Source of the DNA: Anaeramoeba flamelloides
Taxonomy: Eukaryota; Metamonada; Anaeramoebidae
Direction: 5' to 3'
NCBI GenBank assembly: GCA_027625915.1
Contig: JANTQA010000012.1
Coordinates: 372,001-436,000, forward strand
Length of the DNA stretch: 64,000 nucleotides
The notes under the pieces were generated by a model. The model was not told the DNA's origin. It did not search any database and saw nothing but the letters and a program-made list of their open reading frames with translations. This document shows, in pieces, positions 5,864 to 51,693 of this stretch (position 1 is its first letter; every line of letters begins with the position of its first letter). A program made the translations under genes and the position numbers.

Positions 5864-6420
5864 TTAGTTATGACTAAGAGGATGGTTTCTACTCATATTG
5901 TTTGTGGAACAAAATGATCCATGCCAAACGTACTGAACATTTTTAATAAATGCTTTTTTGATAATTTTTTTTTTTGATTGGATCGTTTCTTTCAAAACAT
6001 AATTTGTTGTTTCAAGAGAAATTGAGTTTTGTGTAGGAAAGGTTTTGTGGAAATTTAATTTGAGGATCTTTGACAAAATTAAGTTTGGGAAAATTAGTTG
6101 GATTTTGTTTTTAAAAAATACAGTCAGTTCCACTTTTAAGGCTCAAACTTTACAACAAAAATTAAGGTACTTTAAAAATCTTAAGTTAAGGCACAAAATT
6201 CAAATTCAAGTAAAATAAATTGTGAAAAAAAAAATTCGAACTTATGTACCTTAATTTGAGATTTTTTTGTGCCTTAAATTTTGTTGAAAGTTTGTGTTAT
6301 AAATTTGAAACTGAATGTAAATATAGTTGTCAGTTGAGTAAAAATGATCTTTCTATTTTGGAAATTGGGAATTTTAGTGGATTTAAGGAAGTAAGTACAT
6401 TTTACCATTTTGAAAAATTA
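5864..6420 (-). pseudogene. Duplicated segment R, copy 1, split by a MITE
   Basis: A minus-strand frame (89 codons, with SCST-like residues around 5905-5925) matches a minus-strand frame at 56380-56590, and weaker plus-strand sequence at 17790-17950. On the other side of the MITE, 6335-6400 matches 56700-56760, where the plus strand reads NDLLILGIGDFSGF. The function is unknown. The value of this pair is that the 56.7-kb copy lacks the MITE and so shows the empty site. Confidence 0.4.
6119..6319. mobile_element. Palindromic TA-bounded MITE (family P), diverged copy
   Basis: TACAGTCAGTTCCACTTTTA at the left and ATTTGAAACTGAATGTA at the right delimit a foldback of about 200 bp flanked by TA. 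It is more diverged than the other copies, so probably older. The paralogous segment at 56690 lacks it and retains a single TA. Confidence 0.8.
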
Positions 6421-13525: not shown

Positions 13526-13727
13526 TACAGTCAGTTTCACTTTTAAGGCACAAACTTTCAACGAAATTTGAGGGACAATATAAACCTCAAATTAAGGCAC
13601 AAAATTTGGAAATTTATTTTTTACAATTTATTTTTACTAGAATCTGAATTTTGTGCCTTAATTTGAGATTTTTATTGTGCCTTAAATTTCGTTGAAAGTT
13701 TGTGCCTTAAAAGTGAAACTGACTGTA
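13526..13727. mobile_element. Palindromic TA-bounded MITE (family P)
   Basis: A complete 202-bp copy with ends TACAGTCAGTTTCACTTTTA and TAAAAGTGAAACTGACTGTA. It lies upstream of the RCC1-BTB gene start in noncoding sequence. Confidence 0.9.
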
Positions 13728-22440: not shown

Positions 22441-22779
22441 TTTTTGTTCAAAATAAAGGAGAAAAAGATTTTTTTTCTCAGATTTTTATAATTAATTCAA
22501 CTTTATGTGATATCAAACTCTATTATCTTTTGAAAAAACTAACAAGGAATTCAAGATCATCAGTCTTTTTAAATTTGAACAAAGTATGTATGTCTTGTTA
22601 TCTTCCAATTCCTCTTCTTTATACAGTTCTAGGAACTTTTCACCACAGTACAGTCAATCAAAGAAAGCACAAAACTATTTTAAATCAGGCACAAAAAAAA
22701 AGTAACTACAGTGGTCAAAAAAACGCGTGTCCAAAATTTAACACGTGTTTCTGAATATAACACGTGTTTAATTTCATTT

Positions 22780-23361
22780 TTTCATTGGTTGTTTTTTCAG
22801 GCTTTTCTTCTCTCATTTTCTCTTAAATTTCTTGTTAGAACTTCCCAAACAAACATGATCCCTTTTGTCAAATTCAACCCAACTTAAAAACTCACACACT
22901 AGCCGAACGTAACAAAAACAAACAAACTAACCAATCAAATTGGTTTGACACTTTTGGATCCTCAACTGAAAAAAAAAAAAAAAATTAAACAATCCCCATT
23001 GTATATTGCTGGTTCTTCTCCCTTCAAAAAAAAATAACCAACGCAGCCAAGCCTGGTGATTTCAAATAAGATGCTTGGGAAATCAAAAGAATGGAACCAT
23101 ATTTCCAATTCAATGATCTGTTCGAAGACACTTTCAAAAAATTTCTGGAAACAAAAAGAATAAAAAGGGTAATGGGTTTTTATTGAAACAAAACCTCAAA
23201 TGAGAACTTAAAAGAATAGAAGTTGAAAGCGAAAAGAACAAAGCTGAGAAGAAAAAAATTAATTTTGAAAAAAACAAAAAGGATTAGAAGAAGAAACTGA
23301 CAAAAGTTGAAATGGAAAGGATCTGAATGAAACCAAAAAATAATCCTGAAGATGTGGCCTT
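22780..23361. other. Left noncoding arm of the composite element
   Basis: No intact gene. On the plus strand about 23040-23160 reads as protein-like sequence (MEPYFQFNDLFEDTFKKF), then breaks down. This could be a captured gene scrap; it is not recognised. Confidence 0.35.
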
Positions 23362-26300
23362 TTAATTGTGAGACTCATTATCATTTGCAATATATTGTCT
23401 CATTTTATTTCGAGTTGGGGTTGTGATCCTTCTGAGACGATTTTTTTTTGGGGTTGTTCCCTGGTAAAAATTTTGAGGACTTGGATCATACAGTCAGTTT
23501 CACTTTTAAGGCACAAACTTTCAACGGAATTTAAGGCACAAAAAAAATCTCAAATTAAAGCACAAAATTCAAATTCTAGTAAAAATAAATTGTAAAAAAA
23601 AAAAATTCCAAATTTTGTACCTTAATTTGAGATTTTTTTGTGCCTTAAATTTCGTTGAAAGTTTGTACCTTAAAAGTGAAACTGACTGTAATAATTGGAG
23701 TCTCTTCTGGAATTATTATCACCCTCTCTTCTTAGCATGCTACTCCTATTCCGCCCTCTGCTAGCCCCTCTTCGACGCCCTCTGTTATGCCCTCTGCTGT
23801 GACCTCTACCACGTCCTCTGCTATGCCCTCTACCACGCCCCCTTCTTAAGTTTGAATTAACATTTTCTTTATTAATTCTTATTTTTGATTGTCGTTCTTC
23901 TTGAACTAAAAGAATATTTCTAAATTGTGGATCTAATGGTTGGTAATAATCTGTAAAAACATTTGGGTCGTTATTTAAATTGTTTTTTTGGTGATATTCG
24001 ATTAGTTGTTGATTATTTGTGGATCTATTGGACGGTTCAAGTATTTTTTGAACGGGTGAAAGGGGAATTCATTTTTTTTATAGAGTTTATTTTTAACAAC
24101 CCTGTAACTGTTTCTGTGATTATCCCCATTTCGCCTGTTCCGTTTTCTTGTTTGATCTTCAATTTGATTATTATCTCTGGTTTTATTATTTGAGTGTCTA
24201 TTTGGCGAATGGTTTGAATGTCTATTGGGTGTTCTGTTTGAGTGTCTATTCGAAAAATGGCTTGATTGTCTATTTGATGAATGATTAGAGTGTCTATTTG
24301 ACCTATTGTTTGATTGTCTATTTGGTGTATTGTTTGTTCTTAAATATGTTTTTTCTCCACGTATACTTGTTCTACCAGGTGACATTGATGTTAAAACTTC
24401 ACTATCATCTAACTCATTGTTATTGTCCCGAGTAGAAGGTTCTATTGGGGGAAAGTTATCATAATTATCGTGTATATGTGTATTATTGTCAACAAATCTT
24501 AATAATTGGGGTTGTATAGTCATACCAATTTGAGTAGAATCTCGATTTAAATTGATATTATTAAGAAACGCTCGATTTTCATTTAATAACAAAGTGTTTT
24601 CTTCAATTTGATTTTCCTCTGTTTCTAAAAAATCATTTAATTGATTTTGATAATTATCTTCTATATTGATTCTTGTTTTATGAAAATTTTCAATTGATGA
24701 ATTCTGTGAAATAAGACGAATAGTATTCGTTTCATTAGAACTAATCGGGATATGATTAAAAGGAACTTGCATGTTTGCAAATAATTTTTGAAAGAGTTTA
24801 GAGGGCGGTATATGTTTCCGAGAAGTTCTTCTTTGACTAGCTTTGATTCTTTTTTCTTTATTTGTGAGTTTTTCAATAAAATTTTCACTTGTTAAAATTT
24901 GCCCCGATAGTCTTAAACGACTCCCCTTATTTGAATTTGAAAAGGCAAATTCTTTAATTTCGGCGGGAAATATTGGTTTATTATTTAAGTTTTTATTGAG
25001 ATTCAAAGGATAAACACCCGCTCTGTAAAAAGCTTCAACAATTCTCATTGTTGAAGTTGCCAAATTCAAACAGTGGTCAAAAACCAAATAAAAATTTTTT
25101 TTACAGTCAGTTTCACTTTTAAGGCACAAACTTTCAACGAAATTTAAGGCACAAAAAAATCTCAAATTAAAGCACAATTTTTTGGAATTTTAATTTTCAC
25201 AAATTATTTTAGTAGAATTTGAATTGTGTGCCTTAATTTGAGATTTTTATTGTGCCTTAAATTTCGTAGAAAGTTTGTGTCTTAAAAGTGAAACTGACTG
25301 TATGTCTTTGTTGTTTTTTTAATTCTTGTTTAAAATATTTAAAAACCCCGACATCTAATGGTTGGAGTATATGACTGGAATGGCCAGGGATAACAACACA
25401 ATCTATAAAATGTTGTTGTAGTAAATGTATCGCTCTTAAATCAGCTCTTGAACCGTGCCCGTCAAGAACTAAAAGAGCCCATTTATCCTTTGGATATTTA
25501 TTAAATGTCCTTATGGCTTCCACTTCCAATATGAAAATATATCTAACCCATTGATAAAAGATATATTTGTTGATAAAACCTTTCTGACTACAGTCAGTTT
25601 CACTTTTAAGGCACAAACTTACAACGAAATTTAAGGCACAACAAAATCTCAAATTAAGGCACAAAATTTGGATTTTTTTTTTTTACAATTTATTTTACTA
25701 GAATTTGAATTTTGTGCTTTAATTTGAGATTTTTTATGTGCCTTAAATTTCGTTGAAAGTTTGTGCCTTAAAAGTGAAACTGACTGTAGTTGCGAATCCA
25801 TAATTGGTTAAATTATTCTCCTCAAAAACATTTATAGGTAGTGTTTTTTGAGGAAGTATCAGTAAAGTTTTTAAACAATTACCCTTTGCTGAAATTGTAA
25901 CAACTGCACTAAGATGTTTCCCGTTTGGTACTTGTGTTCTGTATGCTTTTTTTTTGTTTCGGAAGTTATCACAGAATACTTATTATTCTTGTTTAACTGT
26001 AATGATGTTTCGTCCAAATTAAAAATCAGGTCAGAAACATAGTTCTTTTCTTCATATAATTCTTTAAGCGTTTGTAAAAATCTATTTATCAAATCTTCAG
26101 TTACAATTATTCTTTGATATTCTAAAGGAGAACTAACAGTTATTCTTAATTTATTCCTTTTAGCAAAAGCGTGTACCCACATATTTGAAGTTATCAGTTG
26201 CCTTTGGACTTTGAAATCAATTTGCAGCCAAGAAGTTATAATTTCGTTTGCTATCTTGACGGTTTCATCTAATGTTGGTGCCCAGCCAATCAAGGACAAT

Positions 26301-27260
26301 ATCTTTAGTCTTTCAACAATATAATCCTCTTCTGCTTTATTCAACAAGCACGGCCTCCCATTTTCCCCAACTTTTCGACCAACTTTAATTGCCCTTTTCG
26401 CTCGGTAAATCTTTCCCCTATTAATTCTAAAAATTCTTCTAATAAATTTAACAGAGAATGGTTTTATATTCTTTCTCTCACACAAACACACAGCAGACGC
26501 TATCATCTCGATATCATCCGATATCAACATTAATTTCGGGTATTCTCTGAATATTCTAAAAACCAAATTCCTCTGTTTGATCTCCCTTTGCCCAACAATT
26601 GTCGCCTGTTCAAAAATTGATCCAATGCGTTTTTGGTGTAATTCCACAATTTCTTCCTCTGTCAAGATATAGTTTTGTGGATCTTGACATAAAACTTGGC
26701 CATTCGTTATGTTCTGATCATCTTGGCCAAGGTTTATTGCTTCTTCTGATACACCATTCTGATCGTCTTGGGGGATATTTCGATCTTCTTCAATTATGTA
26801 ACCCTGATCGACTTGGGGTGGATTTATTGCTTGTTCATTCATATTCAGATCTTGTTGGTTCAAATTATTTGTTTCTTCAGACACATTACAGTCAGTTTCA
26901 CTTTTAAGGCACAAACTTTCAACGAAATTTAAGGCACAAAAAAATCTCAAATTAAGGCACAAAATTTGTAATTTTAATTTTTACAATTTATTTTTACTAG
27001 AATTTGAATTTTGTGCCTTAATTTGAGATTTTTTTTGTGCCTTAAATTTTGTTGAATGTTTGTGCCTTAAAAGTGAAACTGACTGTATTCATTTCCCCTT
27101 GTGTAATATTTAAGCCTTCATTTTGTGAACAAATTCCATTTGCTAGTTGCTCCTTCTCTGTGTCAGTACCTGAACTGGAAATAAATTCTATAAATTGGTG
27201 TCTAGCTATTTCTTCGTCATTTGTGTTTTCAAACTCAATTTCGATTGTATTTTGTGACAT
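23362..27260 (-). CDS. Pogo/Tigger-like (DDE_1) transposase, interrupted by four MITEs
   Basis: The gene starts at ATG 27260 (MSQNTIEIEFENTNDEE) and ends TAA at 23362. Removing the four family-P elements with one TA each leaves about 1,035 codons. Order: acidic leader, then a Tc5/CENP-B-like helix-turn-helix (WVHAFAKRNKLR), first catalytic Asp in LIFNLDETS, second in LLVLDGHGSR, third in HILQPLDVGVFKYFK (DD35D). A His/Asn/Ser-rich linker and an Arg/Gly-rich tail (repeats of RGRGHS) follow. Two one-base shifts remain: one at the nine-base T run 25947-25955, one between about 24030 and 24075. With MITEs in place it could not encode a whole protein, unless they are removed. DDE enzymes cut and join transposon ends; this one probably served the 22707-30101 element. 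Confidence 0.8.
23489..23690. mobile_element. MITE family P in the transposase C-terminal tail
   Basis: A 202-bp copy flanked by TA. Taking it out with one TA joins DSN to YDPSPQNFYQ in frame; the remaining tail runs to the TAA at 23362. Confidence 0.92.
23700..23860 (-). repeat. Arg/Gly-rich tail repeats of the pogo-like transposase
   Basis: GC-rich tandem degenerate repeats built on CCTCTGCTATGCCC-like words. On the minus strand they encode GRGRGHSRGRGRGHSRGHN and similar. RGG-type tails commonly bind nucleic acid; that is family knowledge, the role here is inferred. Base composition differs sharply from the surroundings. Confidence 0.7.
25102..25302. mobile_element. MITE family P after the DDE core
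   Basis: A 201-bp copy flanked by TA. Precise removal joins ELKKQQRH to KKNFYLVFDH in frame on the minus strand. Confidence 0.93.
25589..25788. mobile_element. MITE family P between first and second catalytic Asp
   Basis: A 200-bp copy flanked by TA. Precise removal joins NYGFAT to SQKGFINKYIFYQW in frame, reconstituting a segment typical of pogo/Tigger cores. Confidence 0.93.
26887..27087. mobile_element. MITE family P near the transposase N-terminus
   Basis: A 201-bp copy flanked by TA. Precise removal joins ITQGEMN to NVSEETNN in frame. Confidence 0.93.
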
Positions 27261-27617
27261 CTTCTTTTTTTTATAGAAAATAAATAAATAAAAAAATTTT
27301 TCTCAATTATTTGTTTTTTCTTTTTTATTGTTTATTATTTTTGGTGTTCTTTTGTTATTTTGCTTTTTTTGTTTTGGAAAAAAAATACTAGAGATTTTCA
27401 TCAAAAAAATTGTTTTCATAAAATATTAGATTTTCAGAAATTTTTAGTTTTTCACGAGTTCGTTAATTTTCATGAATTAAAATTAAATTCTGAAATTAAT
27501 TATATATAACTGAAAGTAAATAAATCAACTCAAAAAATTAAGTTATCTAAGATTTGGAAAAATTATTATTTTCAAAATCATTTTAATATCATTATTATTT
27601 TTATTTTTTTGGAGTTG
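27261..27617. promoter_or_regulatory. Shared divergent promoter region of the two transposase genes
   Basis: This 357-bp AT-rich spacer is the only sequence between the two head-to-head start codons, so both promoters must lie here or inside the genes. It holds TTTTTCACGAGTTCG near 27450. A related TTTTTCACGAGTTCA lies near 29417, beyond the Harbinger-like gene. The pair may be subterminal repeats of a nested Harbinger-like element. No TATA or operator can be assigned. Confidence 0.5.
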
Positions 27618-29234
27618 ATGAACATCGAAATTGAGCTCGAAAATGAAGAAGAAATCATTCTACCAGAACATTGGGGAAATCGGAGAAATATCGAAAATGA
27701 AGAACCTGTTAATGAAAATATTACAGTCAGTTTCACTTTTAAGGCACAAACTTACAACGAAATTTAAGGCACAAAAAAAAATCTCAAATTAAAGCACAAA
27801 ATTCAGATTCCAGTAAAAATTATTTGTAAAAATTAAAATTCCAAATTTTGTGCCTTAAATTTCGTTGTAAGTTTGTGCCTTAAAAGTGAAACTGACTGTA
27901 TTGTTGTTATACCAAATATAATTTGGTCAAAATTTAAAAATAATAACAATAGCGATTTATTGAAAATTATCCCAGGATTTGATTTTGACGAATTTAACGA
28001 TTTATTTTCAAAAGTTAAAAAAAAATTTAGACAAAAGTGTAGAGGTGGTAGACGAGGAGGTATAAGAAATTATAAACAAATGCCGGGTAATAAAACAATT
28101 TTTCTTTTAACCTTATCTTGGTTGAGGAATTATGATAAATATGAAATATTATCAACAAATTTTGGGATTTCCAAAGCATGGTGTCATGATTTAGTAGTTG
28201 ATACAATATTTAAATGCCATGACATTTTAGTTCATGACCAAATATATTGGATTGGGTTTAAGAAACAAAAGGAAGAAAATTCTTTATTTGTGAATTTTCC
28301 AACTGTTGTTGCAGTACAGTCAGTTTCACTTTTAAGGCACAAACTTTCAACGAAATTTAAGGCACAAAAAAAATCTCAAATTAAGGCACAAAATTCAAAT
28401 TCTAGTAAAAATAAATTGTAAAAAAATAAATTCCAAATTATGTGCTTTAATTTGAGATTGTTTTGTGCCTTAAATTTCGTTGAAAGTTTGTGCCTTAAAA
28501 GTGAAACTGACTGTAATTGATTGTACTGTTCATAGAATTAATAAACCTAAAAGAAGGCAAAAAAGGTAATTTATTATTCTAACTTTGTATTTTCGAAAAT
28601 AAATATTATTCGGTTCTCAACAACTTTTCTCACTTTTAATTTTTTGCAAAAAAAAACAATAATTTGGTACAAACTTCTCTTTTTATTTGATATATTGAAC
28701 AAATTCTTAATTGTAAACTTTTAAAAAAAAATTAAATAATTTTTTTTCAGATTTTATTCGGGAAAACATAAGTTTCATTGTATAAAACCCCAAACAATTA
28801 ATAGTTGTTCTGGATTAGTTATGCATTATGTAACTGGGGTAAATGGCCGTAAACACGATAAAAAAATTTTCGATAGAAGTTATCCTGGAGAAATTGAAAA
28901 TTTTTTTCATAAAGAAAATGAAGAGAGTCAAATTGAAGAGCCACTAGCTTTAATGGTTGATAAGGGATATAAAGGAGTTAATCAAATAAAAATTTTTATT
29001 CCGCATTTTGGAAAACGAGAAAATCTCACAGAAGAACAAAATGTTTTTAATAGATTAATTGGAAAACACAGAGTAATAATTGAACAATTTTATGGGAGAT
29101 TAAAAAATAGAAATCGTGTTACAACAGATAGATGGAGAAATGAAATTGGTGATTTCCACAATAAAGTTATCGGAATTTCAATTGCACTTACCAATTACCA
29201 TATCAGATGTGGACACCCTATTAGAAGAAATTAA
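27618..29234 (+). CDS. PIF/Harbinger-like (DDE_4, HARBI1-type) transposase, interrupted by two MITEs
   Basis: Starts at ATG 27618 (MNIEIELENEEEIILPEHW) and ends TAA at 29234. Without the two family-P elements (27722-27900, 28315-28515) and a GT-AG intron (28566-28750) it reads as one frame of about 350 codons with no other break. Domain order: N-terminal helical region (GFDFDEFNDLFSKV), recognition part (LSWLRNYDKYEILSTNFGIS), first catalytic Asp in AVIDCTVHRINKP, second in ALMVDKGYKGV, Glu in RVIIEQFYGRLKNR. That is a complete DDE triad. HARBI1-type enzymes usually need a Myb-like partner; none is present. The leader IEIELEN resembles the neighbour's IEIEFEN, even at DNA level. Not translatable whole unless the inserts are removed. 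Confidence 0.82.
27722..27900. mobile_element. MITE family P, internally shortened, in the Harbinger-like gene
   Basis: A 179-bp copy: the right arm lacks the block containing TTAATTTGAGATTTTT, so the palindrome is lopsided. TA-flanked. Removal joins VNENI to IVVIPNIIW in frame. Confidence 0.92.
28315..28515. mobile_element. MITE family P beside the first catalytic Asp codon
   Basis: A 201-bp copy flanked by TA. Removal turns GCAG-TA-ATTGAT into codons for A-V-I-D, so the element sits two codons before the catalytic Asp. Confidence 0.93.
28566..28750 (+). other. GT-AG intron of the Harbinger-like gene
   Basis: The donor AAAAAG-GTAATT and acceptor TTTTTTTCAG-ATTT join KRRQK-R to FYSGKHKFHCI in frame. 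The 185-base AT-rich intron contains no MITE. Confidence 0.8.
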
Positions 29235-30101
29235 TATTTACTTATATTTTTTTTTAATTCTTAAAATTTTAATTTTTTTTTAATTCAATCAATTGTTCTT
29301 TAATACAATAAAAATAAATTCAAAACTTATGAGATTTATATATTTTATTAACTTTTTATTTTGATTCAACTAAATCAGAATTTGAAAATAATTCTCATTT
29401 TTTTACAATATTCTCGAAGTTTTTCACGAGTTCAGATATTTTCATGAATTTGTTTATTTTTCACTAATAATGAATTTTTCATTAAATTATCAAATTCATG
29501 AAAATAATTAATGAAGTGAAAATGAATCTTTTTTATAAAATGAGTAGTATTTCATAATTTTTAAAATGTATGCGAATATCTCTACTGTTCATTAAAAGAA
29601 AAAAATGAAAATTTTCAAAAGTGAAAGTAAAAAAGTAAAAAATTGGAGATCTGCATTTTTATTTCAAGTTTTTTTTCTAAAATGAAAAAAACAAAAATTT
29701 TAGATGTTTAAACCCCAAAAAAAGAAACTATAGTTCTACATTCACCCAAATTTATTCCGAATTCAACAGATCTTTTGAAAGAAAAATTTTGGTTTTTAAA
29801 CAATTGAAAGGGGGAAAGAAATGACTCAATTCAAATGAAAAAAGAAGATCAAAAGAGTATTGGTTCATCACAAAACTAAATTACAAAAGATTTTTTTTGA
29901 ATTTGTAAATGAGAAAAGCTAGAAAACTTTGATCTTTAAAACGAGTTTGTGGGAAAGATGGTGTATCAGATTCTAAACCTTCCAATTGATCTAACAAAGA
30001 AACAATTTTTTCCAAAATTTAACACGTTTTATTCGTTAAACACTAGTTAAATTTTTCAAAATTATTTTTTTGAAATGACACGCGTTATTTTTACAACAGT
30101 A
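29235..30101. other. Right noncoding arm of the composite element
   Basis: No gene. It contains TTTTCATGAATT words on both strands at 29445-29515, possible subterminal repeats of a nested Harbinger-like element, and AACACGTTTT/ACACGCGTTA motifs next to the right end. Confidence 0.45.
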
Positions 30102-30745: not shown

Positions 30746-33700
30746 ATGTTTGAAGCAATCAAAAACAATAACCTAAGTGCTGTTTCCAAATTGATTTCAG
30801 AAGCACATTCTGTCAATATCAAAGACAAAGACGGAAACACACCACTTCATCAATGCGTTCTAAATAATTGTAGTTTGGAAATGTTAGATCTTTTACTGGG
30901 AAGAAAACCCTTTTTGGATCCGAGAAACAATGAAATCGATACTGTTCTTCACACAGTAATAAAAAAACATTCAGACAACTGCCATTCACTCAAGTTTCTT
31001 GAGAAATTAATCGAATCTGGTTGTGATACAGAACAGACTAATTTAGAAAACCTTACACCTTTAGCTTTGGCTTGTTGTTACAGGGACATTGATCTTCAAA
31101 TTATCAACCTACTTTTAGAAAAATCAAATTACCTGGACACATGTTCAAAAAGACAGATTTTAAAAAAAAAAAGGAAATTAGAGGATTTAGAACGTTACCA
31201 AAAGCAAAACCTTCGTAAGAAGGAAACAATTAAAAAAAAGGAGAAGGAGAAGTACATGGACAATAAAAATAAAAAATTGAAACTTCAAAAAAAGATTGAA
31301 AAAAAAGAAATAATCAACAAAATGAAAAAACAAGAATGGAAAATTCAAAATAAAAACAGGAGCAATCGTAAAAAAAAGAAAAACAAAAAAGAACCAAACC
31401 ATAATTACCTTTCTTATTACCAATCCAAATATTTAAACCCAAATTGTATTGAGGAAACAAAAAGCTGTATACGTTTTAGTTCAGAAAACGGCACTTTAAT
31501 TAAGGATCCATTTCATTTGGCAATTAAAAACAAATTGCCATTAGAAATAATTATTTTATTTTTAGAATCTGGTGTTGATCCAAATCATTTCAATCGCTTC
31601 CCCAGTAGACTACTACAGAACTCATTACAACTTGCCTGTAAATACGCACCTGAAAATTTAAAATTGATTGATCTTTTATTGAAATATGGTGCAAATTTGG
31701 AATCAGAAGATTATAATTCACAAACCTCATTATTTCACTCAATCATCTTAATCGAAAACGAAAAAGATCAAAACATTGAGAAGGAAAAAGAAAAAGAAAA
31801 AGAAAGAAAAATTCGATTCAAATTATTCAAATATTTGCTTTCTAAAAATGCAAATTTCAATCTTTGTGATTCAATTGGATGGACTTGTCTTCATTATTTA
31901 ATTATTTTTAATTATTCTTTCAAGCAAATCCGATACTTGATCGATTTGGGTATTGAAATCAAATATATTATCAAGTCAGATTCTAAATCTGTGAAAAGAT
32001 TTAAACAAAATCAAGAGATCAGTTATTCAAGCAACCAAAAGCCAATTGAGTCAATTGTCACCCCGCTTTGTTTAGCAATTGCAAATAAAAGATCTTTAGA
32101 AATCTGTAGACTTTTGTCCGCATATGAAAAACACATTTATCAACAAACGGAAAAAGAATTTAGGGATTTCATTGTTAAATATATACAAAAAGATTCAAAC
32201 CTACCCTTATTTTTTTCATTAAATCCATTATTTTATTGTGTATCGAATTGTAATCATGGTGAAAATGAAAATACAAATAAAAGCAACACCACCACCACCA
32301 CCACCAACACCAACACCAACACCAACACCAACAATAACAACACCAACAATAACAACACCAACAACAACAACAACAACAATAACAACAACAACAATAACAA
32401 TAACAATAGCATTTTAAAGCATTTAAAATTTTTAATAGAAGAGCTAAAAATTAATATCAATATTAAAGATTTGTATGGAAGTAATGCATTGCATTATGCC
32501 TTAAATAATAAGGCGCCGATCGAAATAATTCAATATTTGATTGAAAATAAAATAAAAATAAATCGTCAAAATAAATTAAAAACTACACCAATCCACTATG
32601 CATGCTTGGCAAATTATGATCCAAAAATTATTGAGTATTTAATCGATTCAGGTGCTGATGCCAGAAGGATTAGCCAATATGCAATTTTCGATCTTCAATT
32701 TAAAAATCAAAATGGGTCATGCAGAAAGGCAGATTATATCACTTGCTTGCATTATTTGTCGACCAACCAAGAGCCCAACATTGAAATTGCGCGAATTTTA
32801 GTGGAGAAGGGCAAAATAGATATCAATGAAACCGATTCATTAGGGTACAACGCTTTCCATGTTGCATGTTTATTTGGCTATAAAGATGTCAATTATTTAA
32901 AATTTTTAGTTGCGAGGGGCATTGATTATAAAAAGACAACAAAGGAAGGATTTCCACCGTTTGTATATTTATTTTATTACAAGGCCAAACGAAAAAAGTT
33001 ACCATTTATCAAATACGTTTTAGAATTGGATCCAAATCAATTAAATCAAATAAATACTAGCAATGAAACCGTTCTTCATTTATTATATCTTCAAAATGAG
33101 CACTTTTATATTAATTCTGACTATTTGAAGCACAGTGACAACGCATTTTTTGGGATGGGTGATAGTAGTATTTATCTGAGATATTACAAGAAATATCTTG
33201 TCAAGTCGCAATTGGAACAAGAAAAAATTGAAAAAAAAAAACAAAATTTTACTTTCCAGATTGCAAATTATTTGATTCGAAAGGGAATCGACTCTGGACA
33301 CTTATCTTCTTCAAATAAAACTGCCTTTATTGTCGCTTTGCAAAATGAAATGTCAACAATCAAGGATTTTCAACTTTTAATTACCAAAAAAAACATTTAT
33401 TGTGCATCTCCTTCGCATTATCAAAATAAGCTTTTTTTTGAGAATGGCCATTTTTTGGCCTTTTGTGATTACAACGAGTATAAAGAACAATATTATGAAG
33501 AATTAAAAAACAAGTACAAAAAGCCATCTGATTCAAATGACAAGGATTTATACACATTCAGAAAAATTGAAAAATCCAAACAACTGAAAAAGATCCAAAC
33601 TTTTGATGTCAATGATGTCAATTCGCCAGGCGTCGGAAAGTCTTCCTTCCATTTTTATATTGAAAATTTCCAAAGAAGTTCCTTTTCGAGGGATCTCCCT

Positions 33701-36700
33701 TCTCGAAAATTTAAAAGCGAATTTTACAATGTTTTGAAACTCTATCTTGACAATGGAATGGATATTAACATAAGAGACGATCAATCTAATACTGCTTTAC
33801 ATTATTTATGTGAAACAAATTATAACAAATTAGTCAAAATTTTAATTGAAGAGGGTGCAGATCTTGATGCTCTAAACTTTTATAGATTTACCCCTTTGCA
33901 TACGGCATGTGCTAGTTGCCAATTGAAACCAAAAGCAATCCAATTGCTAATAACAAATGAAAACATTAATTTGTTTACAGAAAATGTCACTTCAAAGAGG
34001 GACCACTCCCAGAAAAATTTACACTATTCCTTTCCAAATCTTTATAATAAACAAATATTTTTGAATAAAAAGCAAAATGAAAAAAATCCCATTTTGAATA
34101 TTCATAGTGCTAGTGTTACAAAAAATAATGATGATGATGATGATAATGAACCAAATAATAATAATAATAATAATAAAAATAACGATAATAATGAAAATAA
34201 TAATAATAATAATAATAATGAAAATAATAATAATAAGAGCAAGCCAAATAATGACAAAAATAATAATGTCAAAAAGAAGCATAATCTAAATAAGCCAAAT
34301 AAGGGTAAAACGCCAATACATCTTGTTGCTTCGAATGCTAGACAATTCCCAATGATAGACTGGTATCAACGTATGCAAATCCTATTAAAAAATGGTGCAA
34401 ATCCAAATCTTCGAGATGACCAATCAAGAATACCATTACATTTAATATTCGCTAACGGGTTTAAAGGTGGGTTAAAGATGATTACAGAATTATTAATGGA
34501 ATATAATTCCGATCTAAATGCACGGGACATCAATAATAGCACCCCATTGCATTTTGCTAGTTTTTTTAAAGAATTCAATATAGAAAGTGGGAACCCACTT
34601 ACCGAAGACGCTAACTTTTTTGATCATAATAAAACTTGGAGACTCAAAAACGAAAATAAAAAAACAAGACAATCCAGAGAAAAATTAAAAATTAAGCACT
34701 CCAAGCTAATAAAATATTTAGTCATCAAAAAAAATGCAAATATAAATTTGAAAAATTTATATGATGAATACCCTCTACATTTGGCGTGTAGAAGTTCAAG
34801 CCATCTAGAAACAATTAAATTGTTAATTAATAAAAACACTAATGTGAATTCATTATCGAAATTTAATTTAAGTCTTTATTTTAAACAAATGAAAAAAAAT
34901 AATAATTTTATAAAAAGATTGAAAAGCAATTTGGAGAAAAATTTTAAGAAAAGTGAGAAATTTTTTTTTGAAACTGTTGAAAAGGGATTTGGATATACCC
35001 CTCTTCAATTTGCCTGTTTAACTTGTGATTTACCAGTAATTGAATATTTATTAAATAATGGAGCAGATCCAAATATTTTGGATCAATTAAATGAAAATAT
35101 TCTCTTTAAAATCATATTTAATGAAGATTATTTAAATATTTTTAATTATTTGATCCAAAATAATTATATTGTTATTAATAATAATAATGATGATGATGAT
35201 GATGATCAAGATAATAATCTTAATAATAATAATAATAATAATAATAATCTTAATAATAAAATAAATGTTAATCAATTAAATAATAAAGGAAATAATGTTC
35301 TACAAATTGCTTTAAAACATGGATTAAATTATAAAATTATCAAAAAATTAATTGAATTTGGAGTAAACATTCAAAATATCAATAAAAAGGGACAAACAGT
35401 ATTGCATCTTTTTGCTTTAAACTCATCATATTCACCGATATTTATTTATGAAAAATATAATTGTGAAAAAAAATATAATTTTAATAAGGAATCAAGGAAA
35501 AAAAGGAAAAAGAATTCTTTAAAGATTTTCAAGTTGTTAATCAAATCTTATTTAAATTGTGGTTTGGATTTAAATTTCAAACAAAAAAATAATAGTTTTA
35601 GTGATGAAATTTTTTCTTTGGAAAACATCCGTTATCGGTTTTTTCACGACAACGATACTAATAACGGCAATGATAATGATAACGATAATGATAATGATGG
35701 TCTAAAAAAAGAATATACTGGACAAACAGTACTGCATTTACTTTATGCTATTAATCAGGATTATGATATAATAAATTATGTTATTTCAAATGGTGGTAAA
35801 GTTAATAGTAAAGATTTAAATTTAATAACACCATTACATCTAGCAGCAGTTTTCCATGCACCTGTCAAGACAATTAAATTATTATTAGACAATGGCGCCG
35901 AATTAAATAGTAAAGATTCAAAAGGAAATACCCCGATATTTTATTTATTTAACCCCAGGATATTTACACAGAACCAATATGGAGAATCAACTAATTTTAC
36001 ATTCAATTTACAAAAAACTGTGGCATTATTTACAAAAAGTGGAGTCAATTTGGATGTAATTAACAATGGCAAAATGTCTATTTTTGATCTTTTAATGCAA
36101 TATAATTATAAAGATTATTTTCTTTATGAATTATTATTTGACAAAAATATAAAGATTTTTAATGACAAAAGAAATGACGATAATAGATCCTTTATAAGTT
36201 TTATTGAAAAAAATCCGATCTATTTTTCAAAGCTCTTATTAAATTATTGTTATAAATTATTTCAAAATGATCAAATAGATTTTTTACAATTTAATGCTAT
36301 TATAAGACAAATTTTCATTTCCCATTTCAGAATTTTGAATCAAGATATCGAAATTTTTGAAATCATTCTCAAAATTTTAACTTTTTGCAAAAAAAAAAAT
36401 ATACAAACTAATTTATCACGGCGTTTAACCCGTTACATTCTCGTAAATTCTAATTCTTTGAAAATTATCAAAATGTTTATTGAATATGAATACGATCTTA
36501 GCTTTGTGCATGAAGCTAATAATAATTCGCTTCTCCACATGGCCTGTTTAAATATTTGCGCAGAAAATGATGTGAACTTTAATCTTGGTTCATCCCCTCA
36601 GAAATTTTATAAAGATGCTGTTCAAATTAATTTATTAGAAGAAAAAAAGAAAGAAAAGAGATACAAAATAATAAAATACCTTCTTGAAAAGGATAATTCC

Positions 36701-38379
36701 AGAATAAATCATTTTAATAATAATAAAGATACACCCTTATCTGTGGCTTGCCTTGAAAACCTTGGTTTGAAAACAATTAAATTATTAGTGGAATATGGCG
36801 CAAAGGTTGATTTGAAGAAATTATGGCAAAAGGAACAGGAAAAAAAAAAATTTGCTTTGAAAAAAAAGCAAAGCAAGATTGAGATTGATAATGTTGAAAA
36901 AATGAGAAAAGCTGATCAAGAAAAAAATCATGGAAAGAAATCTAACCAAAAAAGTGCAAAAATGGAAATTGAAAAGGAAGCATATAAAGAAGAAGAAGAA
37001 GAAGAAGAAAAAGGGAAAAAAAAAACAAATCGAAAAGGATATTAAGAATAATGACAATGATGAAGAAGAAGAAGAAAAAGAAAAAAAAGAAAAGGAATTA
37101 AAAGAAAATGAAAAAATTCAGAAAAAAATTGAAAAAACAAATGAAATTGAAAAAGAAACAGAAACAAAAAAAGAAACAAAAAAAGAAACAAAAAAAGAAA
37201 CAAAAACAGAAACAAAAATAGAAAGGGAAAAATCTAAAGAAACAGAAAATGAAAAACCAAAACCAAGAGAAATTAAAAATAATAAAACAACATCAAATCA
37301 AAAAAATCAAAAGCCAACTGATAATGTTACAGGAAGCGGAAGGGAAAGAAGTCAACAACCGGGAGTTCAACCAAATTTACCAATAGTGACACCTAATATA
37401 TCTTCATTGCTTACATCGATTTGTGAAAGCAACCCCGATGTTGAAACTATGAAATATTTATTTGAAAATGGGGCAAAATTGGAATTGGAAGATTTAAATT
37501 TGCACCCTTTTGTAAAATCTTGTTCCCATCAGAAGTGTTCTCGTAAGACAATGGAATATATATTAAAAATCACCCCAAAAGAAAAGCAACCTTTAATTTT
37601 AGAAAAATCGTTAGACAATGTCTTTACAAATGAAGATTTCGATTCAGAATTGATCAAATTCTTAATTACATTAAATGCACCAATTAAAGATTACGCCAAC
37701 CCAGAAGGTGCCACAGCACTTCACCTTATCTGCAAAAAGCATCATTACAAATTAATACCTTTATTAATTAAAAATGGGTTGGATGTCAATGCAGTTAACG
37801 ATCAGGGATTATCTTCTTTAGATTATATATTTGAAAGTTTGGGGGATTGCAATTTATCGCGGAATCTCATTTTAACAGCAATGGCTTTAATTGATCATGG
37901 TGCAGATGTTAATATGCAATCAAAGATTTCTCTTGAAACAGCAATTCATAAAGTGGTGGCATTAAAAGGCAGCCTCGAAATATTTCGATATATTATAAAC
38001 AAATCAATAAAAAAACCCAATCTCAATATTAGAGACGCTTTTAATCAAACACCTTTAGATTTTTTTACAACTAACTCGAATGGGATCGAAATGTTAAAAA
38101 TTTGTATCAATAATCAAAAAAAAATTTATTTTAACCAAGACGCAATTAAAAAGTCCTTAGGAACACCAAATTGTCAAAACGAGATTAAAAAATTGTTATT
38201 AACATACCAAAGTCTACAAAATGATTTTCTTCAATTAACTTTAAATGGTAAAGAAAACTCTTTTGAGACAGATTTGGTTATAAATAATTCTGTAAAGGAT
38301 TTCCATTTACATAAATGGGTTATCAAAATGAGATTTTATATTTATTTTAATCATGACGATAATAATAATAAGGATAAGG

Positions 38380-38410
<31 letters not shown>

Positions 38411-39116
38411 GGATGATAAGTGTGAGAAAGAATTCTTTGAACGTTTTATTAATACTATGTCCTTACAAAATGCAATTACTATAAATCAGATAATACATTG
38501 GATATATACTGGAGAAATTGAAATTGATTTGCAAAATTTTAATAAATCATTGAAAAAAAGAGAAGAACAAATTATAAAGAAAAACTTTCATTATCCTCCA
38601 AAACAAGAACTAAATGTCGAAACTCAAAAAACAAAAATTGTCATTCAAAAAAATGAAAAAAAAATATTAAAACAAAAAAATAGATTGATTGAAATTATAA
38701 AAGAAATTGATCCCACAATTAATTCAATGTCGTTATTTAAAAAAAAATCAGGTAAAAATGGATTATTAAATGATTTGAATATATATTATGGATTGAAGAA
38801 AAAAAAATCAAATTCAATGAATTTCAAAATAATTGTTAAGAATGTGCCAATTACTGTCCATAAAGAAATCTTGTTTACAAGAAGTAAATTATTTAAAGAA
38901 ATGTTCTTAAATTTAGATCAAATGGAATCGGTCGTCGACTATTCAGGACTTGATGTTCAAACAATAAAAATACTGATCAAATTTTTATACACAGAATCCA
39001 TTCCTAAGAATTTATCAAATGATATTTTGGATCAACTTTATGACGCTGTTGAATATTTCCAATTATCTAAAAATTCATTTTTATATTATTTAATTGAAGA
39101 AAATTATCAAAACTAA
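30746..39116 (+). CDS. Giant ankyrin-repeat protein with two C-terminal BTB domains
   Basis: Starts MFEAIKNNNLSAVSKLISEA and would be about 2,790 residues. At least 20 ankyrin repeats are readable (GNTPLHQCVL, TPIHYACLANYDPKIIEYL, NTALHYLCETNY, ITPLHLAAVFHAPVKTIKLL, DTPLSVACLENLGLKTIKLL). Asn and Thr/Asn tracts interrupt them, as does a Lys-rich stretch at 31160-31400. After a Lys/Glu linker come further repeats (ATALHLICKKHHYKLIPLL), BTB-1 (DFHLHKWVIKMR, about 38270-38540) and BTB-2 (FKIIVKNVPITVHKEILFTR, about 38820-39090). The frame changes by one base at the A10 run 37016-37025: the first frame stops at 37045 and the other continues to 39116. The paired BTBs match the RCC1-BTB genes here. 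Ankyrin and BTB are protein-binding modules; a scaffold or ubiquitin-adaptor role is inferred. Confidence 0.88.
32286..32410 (+). repeat. ACC/AAC trinucleotide tract encoding poly-Thr then poly-Asn
   Basis: (ACC)n grades into (AACACC)n and (AAC/AAT)n, encoding Thr, Thr-Asn and Asn runs inside the ankyrin protein. More Asn tracts occur at 34150-34220, 35180-35250 and 38360-38410. Confidence 0.9.
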
Positions 39117-40874
39117 TAATTTTCTTTGACTAAATGTTCTTTTACTTTACTTTACTTGAAAAAATATTTTTTTTTTAGACATGAAGATTTTTCTAAAGAT
39201 TTTATTTGAAAAAAATCTTGTTCGTAGATACTAAATAAATACGGTGTTATAATACTTGATAATTATCATAATACCTATCAAGTGAATTAATAAAAACCCT
39301 AAATTAGAATTTTTTTTTTTTTATTTTTTTTAAATACACAATTTGTTCTATACAAATGAGTTTTTTCTCTAATTAAAAAATTTAAATTTTATAAGGGGTA
39401 AGATCAAAGTTTTTATTATAATAAACCCCATTCCAAATATTTGGACATCACAGAAACTTCCAAAATAAGGGGAAAAAATCTCAATTTGTTTTTATTGTTT
39501 ACAAAAATAGGTAAAAAAAAACTCAATTTAATATATTTTTTTAGATATATTAATTTACCAGTCAAAGGAGAATAGTTGTAATTGATAGATTACATGTGTT
39601 TAAAGGGTTTGGATTGATATTAGAAGGAAAAATTTACAATTTGGAAATTTCTAAATTGAAATCATTTTTTAACATTTTTACTTTTTTATGCTTTTTTTGC
39701 AACCTAATTCATTTGTAAATTTTTTTGATAGTGGAGAATCAATAGTCACAAGTTTGTAATCGGTTATTCTAATGTTATTGAAACTAAAAAAAAAAGATTA
39801 TTGAGAAATAATATGGATTTCTTATAAAATTTTCTTTTGATCTTTGATTGGAGATCAAAATGAACATTATTGTTTTCCTAAATAGTGCTCAAAGAATTTC
39901 AAGTTTTTCTATTTTTAAGAAAATCTATTGATTAATAAGTTTTACTTCAGATAGATATCAACTATTTTTTGATGTTTATTATTTACTAATTATTTCTTAT
40001 TTTTTCTTTAAAGGTCAATTTAAAAAAAAAATAATTGATGAAAACTTTTTTAATGTTTTTTTGATTTGAACATCTTATACTAATTTTTACAATTTTTATC
40101 GAAAATTAAAATGGTTAACTATATGATTTTTTTTGAGTAAATATATTGATTTTTAAAGGTGATTAAGATTCCCTCATTTTTCTTAAGTATGATTTGAGTT
40201 TTCAAAGATTTTTTTAATAAAAGTGTATATCAATAAAATAATAATAAAAGTACAATGAAAAAAAAAAAGAATATAATAAAGAATATATATTTATAAAAAA
40301 AAATGAAAAAAGAAAAAGAAAAGCAAAAAGTAAAAAAAATAGTAATAATTATTGAGAATAAAATTATAAAAAATATTATGATCTAAAAAGTGCCATGTTA
40401 TTTTGAGTTAAAGATAGAATTAAACACATTGGAATGGTTTTTTCTAACAAGTAAACTGGGTACATCGAGTTCAAAAAGAGTTTTTTATCAAACTTATATT
40501 TCCTTCTTTTCAATTCAATTAAGAGGGGTGAAGTATTTTGTTACAAAACTTTTCACTTTGCTTTTAAATAAAATCTTAAAGAACCTTGAAATCTAGAATT
40601 ATCATTATTGTTTATTATAACTTTTTGAATATTTATTTCAAAATTATGTCTATATAATTTTAGTTCTTTGAATTTTTTAATGGTTTCTTTGAATAATTAA
40701 CACTTCATTGGCAAATATATTGTTATTTTTTAAAAAATGTATTAAACAAGTGGTTAATTATTAAAAAGGAATAATTCCAAAATTAAATATTTTAAAAATT
40801 AGGTTATCTCTTAAAAATAAGAATTGAGTTTTTCTCAATTATGATATTATAATTTTGTTTAAATATTAACTGTT
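39117..40874. other. Intergenic stretch with an isolated element end at 39421
   Basis: No gene. AAACCCCATTCCAAATATTT at about 39421 resembles the ends of the elements at 5344-5857 and 43364-46116 and may be a solo or truncated terminus. Confidence 0.4.
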
Positions 40875-47950: not shown

Positions 47951-50900
47951 ATGGCATTAGATCTTGTATCGTCCATTTTTTCTGCATGTATGTATATTCA
48001 TGAACAAGTTATGCTCTGTAAAAATAATAATAGCCATGTTCACAAACTTCAACGTGTATTGTATTCATTAGAAGAACCTCTTAAAAGTAAATATAACCAA
48101 ATTCCCTTGATAAAACCAACAAAACAAAAACAATATTTTTTTGTTTTTTTCAACATTTTCTTCGTGAATCTCAACAAATCTTTATTAAATTTCTTTTCAA
48201 TTTACAAACACATGTAAAACTTCCAAAAGAATTAAAGGAGGACGAGGAAAAAGCAGACAAAAAATTACAGGTACTTCATGATATAATGTTTCTTATTAAA
48301 GATCTTCAGGAATTTCTGGATAGCAAGATCTTTCAAAAGAAACTTTTCAGGATTGCTCGACGTAAAAAAATCAAAGAAGATTTGGAGGGCTATCAACAGG
48401 ATCTGAATGAGCAAGTAAATTTACTCAGCTTAGGCGTTATTACAGAGGTGAACGAAAAGGTCAACAAGGTTGATGAGAATGTGGAAACTGTGCTAGGTGA
48501 GATTGCTGTGATCAAGGACGAGATCAAAAAATATAACAAGAGCATCGAGGAAGAAAAGCCTGCCGAGTTCAATTTCAATGACCTGAGTATCCTTGATCTT
48601 CAAAAGATGTTTGGCATGGACAAAAAGGGAGCAACGATCATTCGTAATGCGATCAATACAAACAATAAAGAACAGGTCGACTCGTTTGACTTGATGTATG
48701 CGAAACGGATCCTCAAGAAAGGCAAAATCCCCGATCAAGCGGAATTTTGCTTCACCTCATGGGACGTCGACTCGAATGGGTCGCTCTCGCAGGAAGAGAT
48801 TTATGACACGATGTACAACATCTTGCGGCTGAAATCGTTACATGGCTATGTGAAGAGCTTTGACAACAAAAAATGGTTTCTTGCCTTTGAAAAGCAACCA
48901 GAGGAAAAGCAAAACCATTTCTACAAGTTAATTGAAAAGGAGATCATTGAGAGGGCTGAGGAATTGAAGATCAGCGATGAAATAAGTCTAATATTTCAAA
49001 AAGCAAAAGTAAACAAGGAACAAGAAATTGAAAAGGACGACTATATAAAGTATTGTATGGATCAGAGTTCATCACTTTTAGATATCTTTTGTGATTCGTT
49101 ATGCTCTGTTATGTCCATTAAACGCAAAAGAAGAAGAGAAAAAATGGCCATTAAAATCGAGCAAGTGTCACAAGGCGAAAATGCGTCTCGAGATTACAAA
49201 GACGAAGAAGAAGAAGAACAAGAAAAGGAAAAGCAAAAAGAAAAAGAAGAAGTCAAAATTGAAAAAGAAGAAAATGATGAAGTAGAAAAAGAAAACGAAA
49301 AAGAAGTAGAAAAAGAAATTAATTATCAATCTGACAAATGGGATGGCAAAATTAAAAAATCAACGATAAATATTTATAATAATGGTAAAACCATTAAAAA
49401 ATTGGAGAAAGGATGGGATTGGATCAGAGGTACTAAGGTAATGTCTCATAACACTGGTGTGTATCACTATGGGATCAAAATTGATTCACATAACAATTTT
49501 GAAAATCCCTATTTGATGATGGGGATTGTTCCATCTGCATCCACGAGCCATACGTACAGTTCGGGCTATTGTTTCACGGGCGACGACTCTGGCCAATGGG
49601 AGGGAAGATATTGTTTGAATAAAGCGAGTGGCTATGGGAATGGGTGCAGGATTAAAACAGGTGATATTATCCATGTAATAGTTGACACTGATTCCAAAAA
49701 TCTTTCATTCAAGTTAAATTCACAGGATCTAGGAATTTGCCAAGATAATATCCCCAATGAGTGTATTCTTAGTGTAGATCTCTGTTCGAAAAACGATCAA
49801 ATAACACTTCTTGAGAATGGTGATCAATCTGAGGGCAATGATCAAGATAATATTGGCATAATTGATCAAAATTCCAGTGACTTAAAAGAGGAACGGTTAA
49901 AATGCCATGTGGGCGATCTAATTAAACAATACAAATGGTCGTCAGAATGGACAAACATCAGGCCATTCCAAGTTGGAAAAAAGCATTTCAATTTTGAATA
50001 CAAAAATAATACAGGAAGAGCAGATATTTTAAGGGTAAATAATGACGGATCACTGAGCAAGGAAGAGCCCCATAAATATAATTGGAGTAAAGGATGGACA
50101 ACGACGCAGTTCTACACAATAAATGGGATCACTTATTTATTGCTATTGAAAAAGGAAACTGGGCTAGCCAAGATCCATAAAATGAATGAAAATGGATCAT
50201 TGGGCGAGCTAGTTGAAGAGCATTATTGGTCCTCGGGATGGACGAATATCAAGCCATTCCAAATCGGAAAAAAGCATTATCTTTTCCAATACAAAACCAA
50301 TCATGGAATCGCAGACATTTTGATGGTCAATAATGACGGAACAATCGGCGAGAATCTTCACAGGTATAAATGGAGCAAGGGATGGACAACAACAGAGTTC
50401 TATATAATAAATGGGATCACTTTTTTATTTCTATTGAAAAATGACAATGGAATAATCCAAATTAATAAAATGAATGAAAATGGATCGCTGGGCGAGCTAG
50501 TTGAAGAGCATTATTGGTCCTCGGGATGGACGAATATCAAGCCATTTCAAAAGGGCGGCCAACATTATCTTTTTGCATACAAAGCAAATCATGGAATCGC
50601 AGACATTTTGATGGTCAACAATAACGGAACAATCGGCGAAACTCTTCACAAGCATCAGTGGAGTAAAGGATGGACAACAACGGAATTCTACACAATCAAA
50701 GGGAACACCTATTTATTTCTATTGAAAAAAACTAATGGGCAAGTTAAAATACATATAATGGGTAAAAGAGAATCACCGGAGAGTAAAAAGAAAGGGCCCA
50801 TTGATTTAAAACAGGCAAGATTAAAATGCCTTGTGGGCGATCTAATTAAAAAATACAAATGGTCATCAGAATGGACGAACATCAAGCCATTCCAAGTTGG

Positions 50901-51693
50901 AAACAAACATTACAATTTCGAATACAAAAATAACAATGGAAGAGCAGACATCATGATGTTAAATAATGACGGATCACTTGGCGAAACTCTTCACAAGTAT
51001 AAATGGAGCAAGGGATGGACAACAACAGAGTTCTACACAATAAAAGGGACCACCTATTTGCTGTTGTTGAAAATGGGCACTCAAGTCGCGATGGTACATA
51101 AAATGAATGAAAACGGATCGTTAGGTGAGCTAGTTAAAGAAATAAAATGCTCGTCTGGGTGGACGAACATCAGGCCATTCCAAATTGGAAACAAGCATTA
51201 TCTTTTTGGATACAAAGCAAACGATGGAAGGGTAGACATTTTAATGTTAAACAATAACGGAACAATCGGAAAAATACTTCATCAATCCAAATGGAGTAAA
51301 GGATGGACAACAACAGAGCTATACACAATAAAAGGGAACACTTATTTATTGCTGTTGAAAAAGGGCAACGGCCTCGTGATGGTCCATAAAATGAATGAAA
51401 ATGGATCGGTAGGCAAGCTTGTTGAGAAGCATAATTGGGAAGCTGGATGGACAAACGTCATGCCATTCCAAGTCGGAAAAAAACATTATCTTTTTACATA
51501 TATGATCAACAAAGGAAGAACACATATTTTATTATTAAACAGGGATGGGACAATCGGTGAAACCCTTCATAAAAATAAGTGGAGTAAAGGATGGTCAACT
51601 ACGGATTTCTACACAATAAATGGAATCACTTATTTATTGCTATTGAAAAAAACTAATGGACTAGTGAAAATACATAAAATGGGTAAAATGTAA
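47951..51693 (+). CDS. MLKL/HeLo-like helical domain, EF-hand, SPRY-like domain and twelve Trp-rich repeats
   Basis: Two exons (47951-48086, 48230-51693) joined by a 143-base GT-AG intron give about 1,199 residues. Residues 1-125 (MALDLVSSIFSACMYIHEQV, LQRVLYSLEEPLK, KKLFRIARRKK, LLSLG) are helical and resemble the four-helix bundle of MLKL/HeLo-type proteins, which permeabilise membranes in cell death; this is a pattern match, not a homology search. An EF-hand loop DVDSNGSLSQEE (224-235) has all the calcium-binding positions. An acidic coiled stretch follows, then a SPRY-like domain (about 416-566, GVYHYGIKI, YLMMGIVPSAS, GDIIHVIVD). Two blocks of six Trp repeats (WSSGWTN / WSKGWTTTEFYTI), each opened by RLKCxVGDLIK, fit two six-bladed lectin-like propellers. 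Role inferred: a sensor coupled to membrane damage or scaffolding. Confidence 0.75.
48087..48229 (+). other. Likely intron of the MLKL/HeLo-like gene
   Basis: Donor AAAA-GTAAAT, acceptor TTCCAAAAG. Joining the exons keeps frame (EEPLK-KLKEDEEK). No other AG occurs between 48088 and 48228, so this is the first possible acceptor. The last bases of the intron also read as KLPKE in frame, so a one-base sequence error instead of an intron cannot be excluded. Confidence 0.6.
49900..51690 (+). repeat. Two tandem blocks of six Trp-rich repeat units
   Basis: Units of about 48-50 residues alternate between a WSSGWTNI.PFQVG type and a WSKGWTTTEFYTI type. Block 1 covers about 49929-50758 and block 2 about 50850-51690. 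Each starts after RLKCHVGDLIK or RLKCLVGDLIK, pointing to duplication of a whole six-unit module. Confidence 0.85.

Follow-up and report, generated by a model that had tools for sequence, protein, structure and literature searches.

Six palindromic elements in nested transposase genes of Anaeramoeba flamelloides: a probable recent wave of TA-inserting hairpin MITEs

Two transposase genes of the metamonad Anaeramoeba flamelloides are interrupted by six TA-bounded elements of about 200 bp, all lying within a stretch of 64,000 nucleotides (assembly GCA_027625915.1, contig JANTQA010000012.1, positions 372,001 to 436,000 of the forward strand; hereafter the window, whose own coordinates are used throughout). 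These elements, here called family P, are very probably non-autonomous, TA-inserting hairpin miniature inverted-repeat transposable elements (MITEs) of the Tc1/mariner type, which a recent wave of insertion brought into a young nest of transposons. An earlier reading of the letters alone (the sequence-only reading) had left the choice between a very recent burst of insertion and the removal of the elements from DNA or RNA; the comparisons described below support recent insertion, whereas removal finds no support in them.

Insertion of P elements into open transposase frames

Four P elements lie in the minus-strand gene of a pogo-like transposon: element 1 (23489-23690, 202 nt) near the C-terminal end of the coding frame, element 2 (25102-25302, 201 nt) after the DDE_1 part, element 3 (25589-25788, 200 nt) just ahead of the matched DDE_1 stretch, and element 4 (26887-27087, 201 nt) in the N-terminal part. 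The remaining two, element 5 (27722-27900, a shorter form of 179 nt) and element 6 (28315-28515, 201 nt), interrupt the first exon of a Harbinger-like gene on the plus strand. All six, to which no strand is assigned, start with TACAGTCA, end with TGACTGTA and have TA on both borders, and P elements are nearly perfect palindromes, with predicted RNA folds of -120.8 kcal/mol (z -24.8) for element 4 and -86.7 kcal/mol (z -16.9) for element 5. Places and lengths are as first described, although the term 'near-identical' used for the elements was loose, the four pogo-borne ones differing by 2.0-6.5% from the family consensus. The claim that codons join in frame once an element is removed and one TA kept also holds, the gene frame being open across the join at 6/6 sites (300 bp per side read). 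A search of the whole window against Rfam at gathering scores returned no match. Additionally, each arm of element 4 carries three copies of TTAAGGCACAAA at a spacing of 23-25 bp (element positions 18, 43 and 66, and reversed at 124, 148 and 173); these repeats are possible transposase-binding sites.

The two host genes had been described as adjacent; there are indeed two transposase genes, but one transposon is nested in the other. The pogo-like transposon (22707-30101, minus strand, gene start near 27260) has an exact end, TACAGTGGTCAAAAAA, at 22707, and for the opposite end a degenerate match, judged by eye, was identified at about 30078-30101. The Harbinger-like transposon (27390-29583, plus strand), bounded by AGAGATTTTC and GAATATCTCT, was delimited with the help of other Harbinger-like copies and of the empty site in another pogo-like copy, L073, where window positions 27389 and 29583 meet, uninterrupted, at positions 303-306. 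A 3-bp duplication, ACT, flanks it at 27387-27389 and 29584-29586 (by eye). The pogo-like transposon carries the Harbinger-like one in its non-coding 5' part, and P elements lie inside both; the nest therefore has three levels, and all six elements fall within it. When the gene pieces were searched separately, DDE_1 was matched in the pogo-like piece between elements 2 and 3 (E 5.4e-13) and DDE_Tnp_4 in exon 2 of the Harbinger-like gene (E 7.8e-21); HTH_Tnp_4 gave a sub-threshold match in the Harbinger-like gene. As the DDE_1 match begins at profile position 49, this domain is probably split at element 3. The Harbinger-like gene also has an ordinary GT...AG intron (28568-28751, plus strand, by eye), downstream of which the frame resumes. 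The C-terminal part of the pogo-like gene contains 24-bp tandem repeats (24185-24360) coding for Asn-Arg-x-Ser-like units, the number of which differs in L073.

The origin of the interruptions is revealed by further host copies. A protein-level search yielded 26 Harbinger matches, including several fragments of one copy, and the eight closest copies besides the window's were examined (L035-L042); the pogo-like comparison rests on one other copy, L073. All eight Harbinger-like copies run on across the sites of elements 5 and 6, with 96.2-99.1% identity in the aligned stretches beside the sites, and at 16/16 sites (two in each copy) the flanks are separated by TA and nothing else. Likewise, L073 has exactly TA at the four sites of elements 1 to 4; it lacks P termini altogether, and its frame runs through 1,097 aa without a break. 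The comparison of host copies with and without elements, which the sequence-only reading had proposed, thus yields eight Harbinger-like copies and one pogo-like copy that are empty, with a single TA at 20/20 sites, the target-site duplication of a Tc1/mariner-type MITE. These empty single-TA sites show that the elements were inserted into open transposase frames, and the DNA gives no call for their removal. In one of the Harbinger-like copies, L039, a separate P element occupies another position, in exon 2, as expected of scattered insertions. An allelic empty copy of the locus was sought via the neighbouring stretch 37600-39600 and none was found; the long match ranking next has 86% identity, which makes the assembly look collapsed.

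Young hosts and a large, clustered family

The sequence-only reading had considered it odd that six hits accumulated in code that otherwise stayed nearly open. This oddity loses its force now that the youth of the hosts and the clustering of the family have been measured, for the frames are nearly open because the hosts are young. Among nine Harbinger-like copies compared, the window's has five private substitutions in 329 codons (one synonymous, four non-synonymous, no stops). The nine together show 4 synonymous and 18 non-synonymous substitutions, a ratio of 4.5 against a neutral expectation of 4.26 if every change is accepted, and hence no sign of purifying selection across these copies in counts that are small. 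As far as such counts go, they would indicate neither selection nor much elapsed time. No one-base indel occurs in 988 compared bases in five of the nine copies, the window's included, and the remaining copies have 1 to 4. Aligned with L073 over 2,710 bases, the pogo-like copy of the window shows 44 differences, and one single-base gap outside the repeat-rich part, in a comparison that leaves out 23991-24339; the repeat-rich part itself (23691-23990) has several gaps and a single change to stop, in an alignment that is doubtful. Of the two one-base shifts reported in this gene, the one near 25950 is confirmed against L073, whereas the one near 24060 was only read off translations.

The family itself is large, and its elements do not owe their features to chance, judging by the two folds above and the following counts. 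A 27-base terminus, with up to two mismatches allowed, occurs 7,090 and 7,145 times on the two strands of the 254-Mb genome (reversed control, 0), which corresponds to about 7,000 copies and a mean of one per 36 kb; counts of TACAGTCA alone, with the control subtracted, lead to an estimate of about 8,700 copies. Among 94 distinct elements, 76 are 200-202 nt long, and divergence from the P consensus has a maximum of 17% and a median of 3%, which leans young because many of the 94 came from a best-match search. Terminal inverted repeats, shortness, high copy number and uniform length are all found in P; the family is new, its kind is well known, and it is seen here shortly after an insertion wave. 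Outside the nest, the window contains a further P element (13526-13727, 202 nt, 3.5% off the consensus) and an older, degraded one (6119-6320, 12% off). Several P termini also crowd the first 3.4 kb of contig C1 (C1:931-3390). Variant termini (TACAGTCATGTGCC... and TACAGTCAATCAAAG...), followed by GGCACA-like motifs, occur at L008:1501 and at window position 22649, and possibly represent sister MITE families.

P elements are commonly clustered near young copies. Around 29 other P copies, 86,416 bp contain 32 further elements, 13 times the mean from the terminus count and about 11 times that from the TACAGTCA count; 14 of these loci contain the index element alone and two contain five. Along C1, gaps below 1.5 kb between 100 TACAGTCA sites number 10, against 4.9 expected. 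Clustered MITE insertions have been reported in carrot (PMC3695323).

The course of events was very probably as follows. The pogo-like transposon first received the Harbinger-like one, forming a young nest, into which a recent insertion wave placed the six P elements, presumably moved by cut-and-paste with transposase made elsewhere. Each insertion disrupted a transposase gene whose frame was then still open, or almost so; the broken copies would now be neutral, with too little time elapsed for the remaining code to decay. Clustering could stem from local hopping, from persistence in DNA whose disruption is of no cost to the host, or from both. Possible suppliers of transposase are the 149 DDE_3 (Tc1/mariner-type) matches over cut-off in the genome, and a complete P element (L076:322-522) lies beside a DDE_3 transposase frame. 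The end of the pogo-like host has only TACAGT in common with P ends. A mariner at L036 was rejected as autonomous partner, as it is enclosed by a different long inverted pair; the P-type ends TACAGTCAGTTTCAC are the signature by which such a partner would be recognised.

Several observations weigh against this account. A transposase with P termini on both sides was not found in the three of 150 listed DDE_3 matches that were read, over about 2 kb each. The clustering figure around the 29 loci is an upper view, because these are best matches to one young copy, at least two of them adjoin, and looser termini were used than in the genome count; eight loci chosen by their Harbinger copies have 0.10 elements per kb, 3.6 times the mean, with five of the eight elements in one locus. 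The selection counts amount to 22 substitutions in all. Finally, the P-bearing open frames at L064 and L067, which are low-complexity, gave no transposon domain (the L064 piece lay outside the domain scan), and harm to host genes is therefore possible.

Targeting, removal from RNA and removal from DNA

A preference of P for coding or transcribed DNA, with the cluster reflecting a targeting rule, would be suggested by the position of all six nest elements in coding sequence, but is improbable. Counted over 22706-29886, 327 of the 462 TA sites of the nest are coding; six out of six is thus unremarkable (p = 0.13). For a wider sample, 80 elements were recognised in 39 stretches and 70 of them scored, those less than 300 bp from a stretch end being excluded. 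Open frames with a minimum of 100 aa contain 20 of the 70 (29%), compared with 21% of 2,340 control TA sites; however, the 70 include seven elements of the window and two repeats of them in L043, and without the window and L043 the count is 12/61 (20%) against 424/2,220 control TA sites (19%; recounted). The flanks are A+T-rich and show no clear motif beyond TA. Enrichment of the family in exons, raised earlier as a thing to check, is accordingly absent from this sample, and P copies elsewhere, for which ordinary non-coding DNA had been set against exons, occupy both non-coding DNA and open frames in proportion to what is available. Among the frames hit elsewhere are the Harbinger copy of L039, the mariner transposase of L036 (DDE_3) and a reverse transcriptase at L060 (RVT_1, E 1.3e-13). 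The P-hit pieces of L047, L048 and L061 gave no domain match over cut-off, and by eye we take them to be LINE-like.

Removal from RNA would imply that a structure-guided reaction, independent of the spliceosome, excises the hairpins from transcripts and rejoins the ends, as in SOS splicing or hairpin introners, with transposase still being made. The strong hairpins would bring both TA together, and hairpin introners with non-standard boundaries exist in Amoebophrya (PMC7789003). SOS splicing of transposon insertions employs the ligase RtcB (PMC13247085), which has matches over cut-off in the genome on C51, C13 (two), C37, C1 and C33. Since RtcB also serves tRNA splicing, its presence says little, and the matches permit SOS splicing but do not suggest it. 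One RtcB gene is usual per eukaryote; here a single genome has six matches. As for conventional splicing, one or two in-frame GT..AG pairs lie near the ends of four of the six elements, none of them exact, and none was found for the other two in the ranges tried. At every one of the six sites, the borders compatible with exact excision are TA..TG, AC..GT and CA..TA, joined at one site by GT..CT, but never GT..AG; splicing of that type at the exact borders is impossible for every element (0/6). A test for selection on the hairpin through covariation of its arms gave no clear signal: in the stem pairs of 93 elements (7,337 cells), 451 changes are one-sided and 14 are compensatory double changes, the latter within the range of shuffles (mean 9.9, maximum 17). 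Nor does the interrupted Harbinger copy show continued selection, in the small counts given above, or P an exon preference. Removal from transcripts is therefore rated as quite unlikely. If it were true, spliceosome-independent hairpin removal would mean that thousands of insertions are tolerated even in open frames, and it could place SOS-like splicing outside animals.

Programmed elimination, in which P would be removed from DNA in a somatic nucleus like the MITE-derived internal eliminated sequences (IESs) of ciliates, is highly improbable in spite of the TA bounds, the TAYAGYNR-like start and the precedent set by Blepharisma, where about 8,000 MITE copies serve as IESs (PMC9942856): the long ordinary frames of the window (2,099, 728 and 1,135 aa) are uninterrupted, host copies elsewhere in the same assembly are empty, so that the presence of P varies by copy, and P is one high-copy family of narrow length, unlike the IESs of Paramecium, over 90% of which are under 150 bp and which are described as unique-copy (PMC3464196). 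The likeness of P ends to TAYAGYNR, the Paramecium IES end consensus, is real, as the sequence-only reading had held, but carries little weight, since that consensus itself resembles Tc1/mariner ends (PMC3464196) and a Tc1/mariner-type MITE can fit it too.

Among the neighbouring genes, the 1,135-aa frame (48286-51693) contains many WSxGWTN-like repeats. Two long frames with poly-Asn runs (30746-39116) are presumably ankyrin/BTB-like, and paralogues of the stretch 37600-39600, sharing 86, 83 and 71% DNA identity with it, lie elsewhere in the genome.

Known systems and meaning

Stowaway ends carry a CTCCC motif, whereas P ends begin CAGTCAGTTTCAC; P also differs in being palindromic almost throughout its roughly 200 nt. 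Otherwise, P has much in common with Stowaway-type or Tc1/mariner-derived MITEs such as DcSto of carrot (PMC3695323), which are short and A+T-rich, with a TA duplication and inverted ends, and which likewise show thousands of copies, clustered and nested insertions and recent mobilisation. With BogoMITE and the palindromic MITE-IESs of Blepharisma (PMC9942856), P shares a very high copy number, a narrow length, nested insertions and kinship to the Tc1/mariner superfamily, some Blepharisma families being palindromic as well; however, BogoMITE has a TAA/TTA duplication and undergoes elimination from the somatic genome, whereas nothing points to elimination of P. Paramecium IESs (PMC3464196) have TA bounds and a Tc1/mariner-like end in common with P, but most of these IESs are short and unique, and they have been observed to be removed, whereas P is one repeated family. 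Introners (PMC9860276, PMC7789003) are also multiplying short elements, many with inverted ends, but they are spliced, and P lacks GT..AG borders that would allow exact removal.

The nest clearly documents a recent natural wave of MITE insertion, with an intact host and with empty and filled sites in one assembly. Restored frames and IES-like ends are, by themselves, no evidence for DNA or RNA editing. The size and clustering of the family make P a usable test bed for whether hairpin insertions ever leave mRNA.

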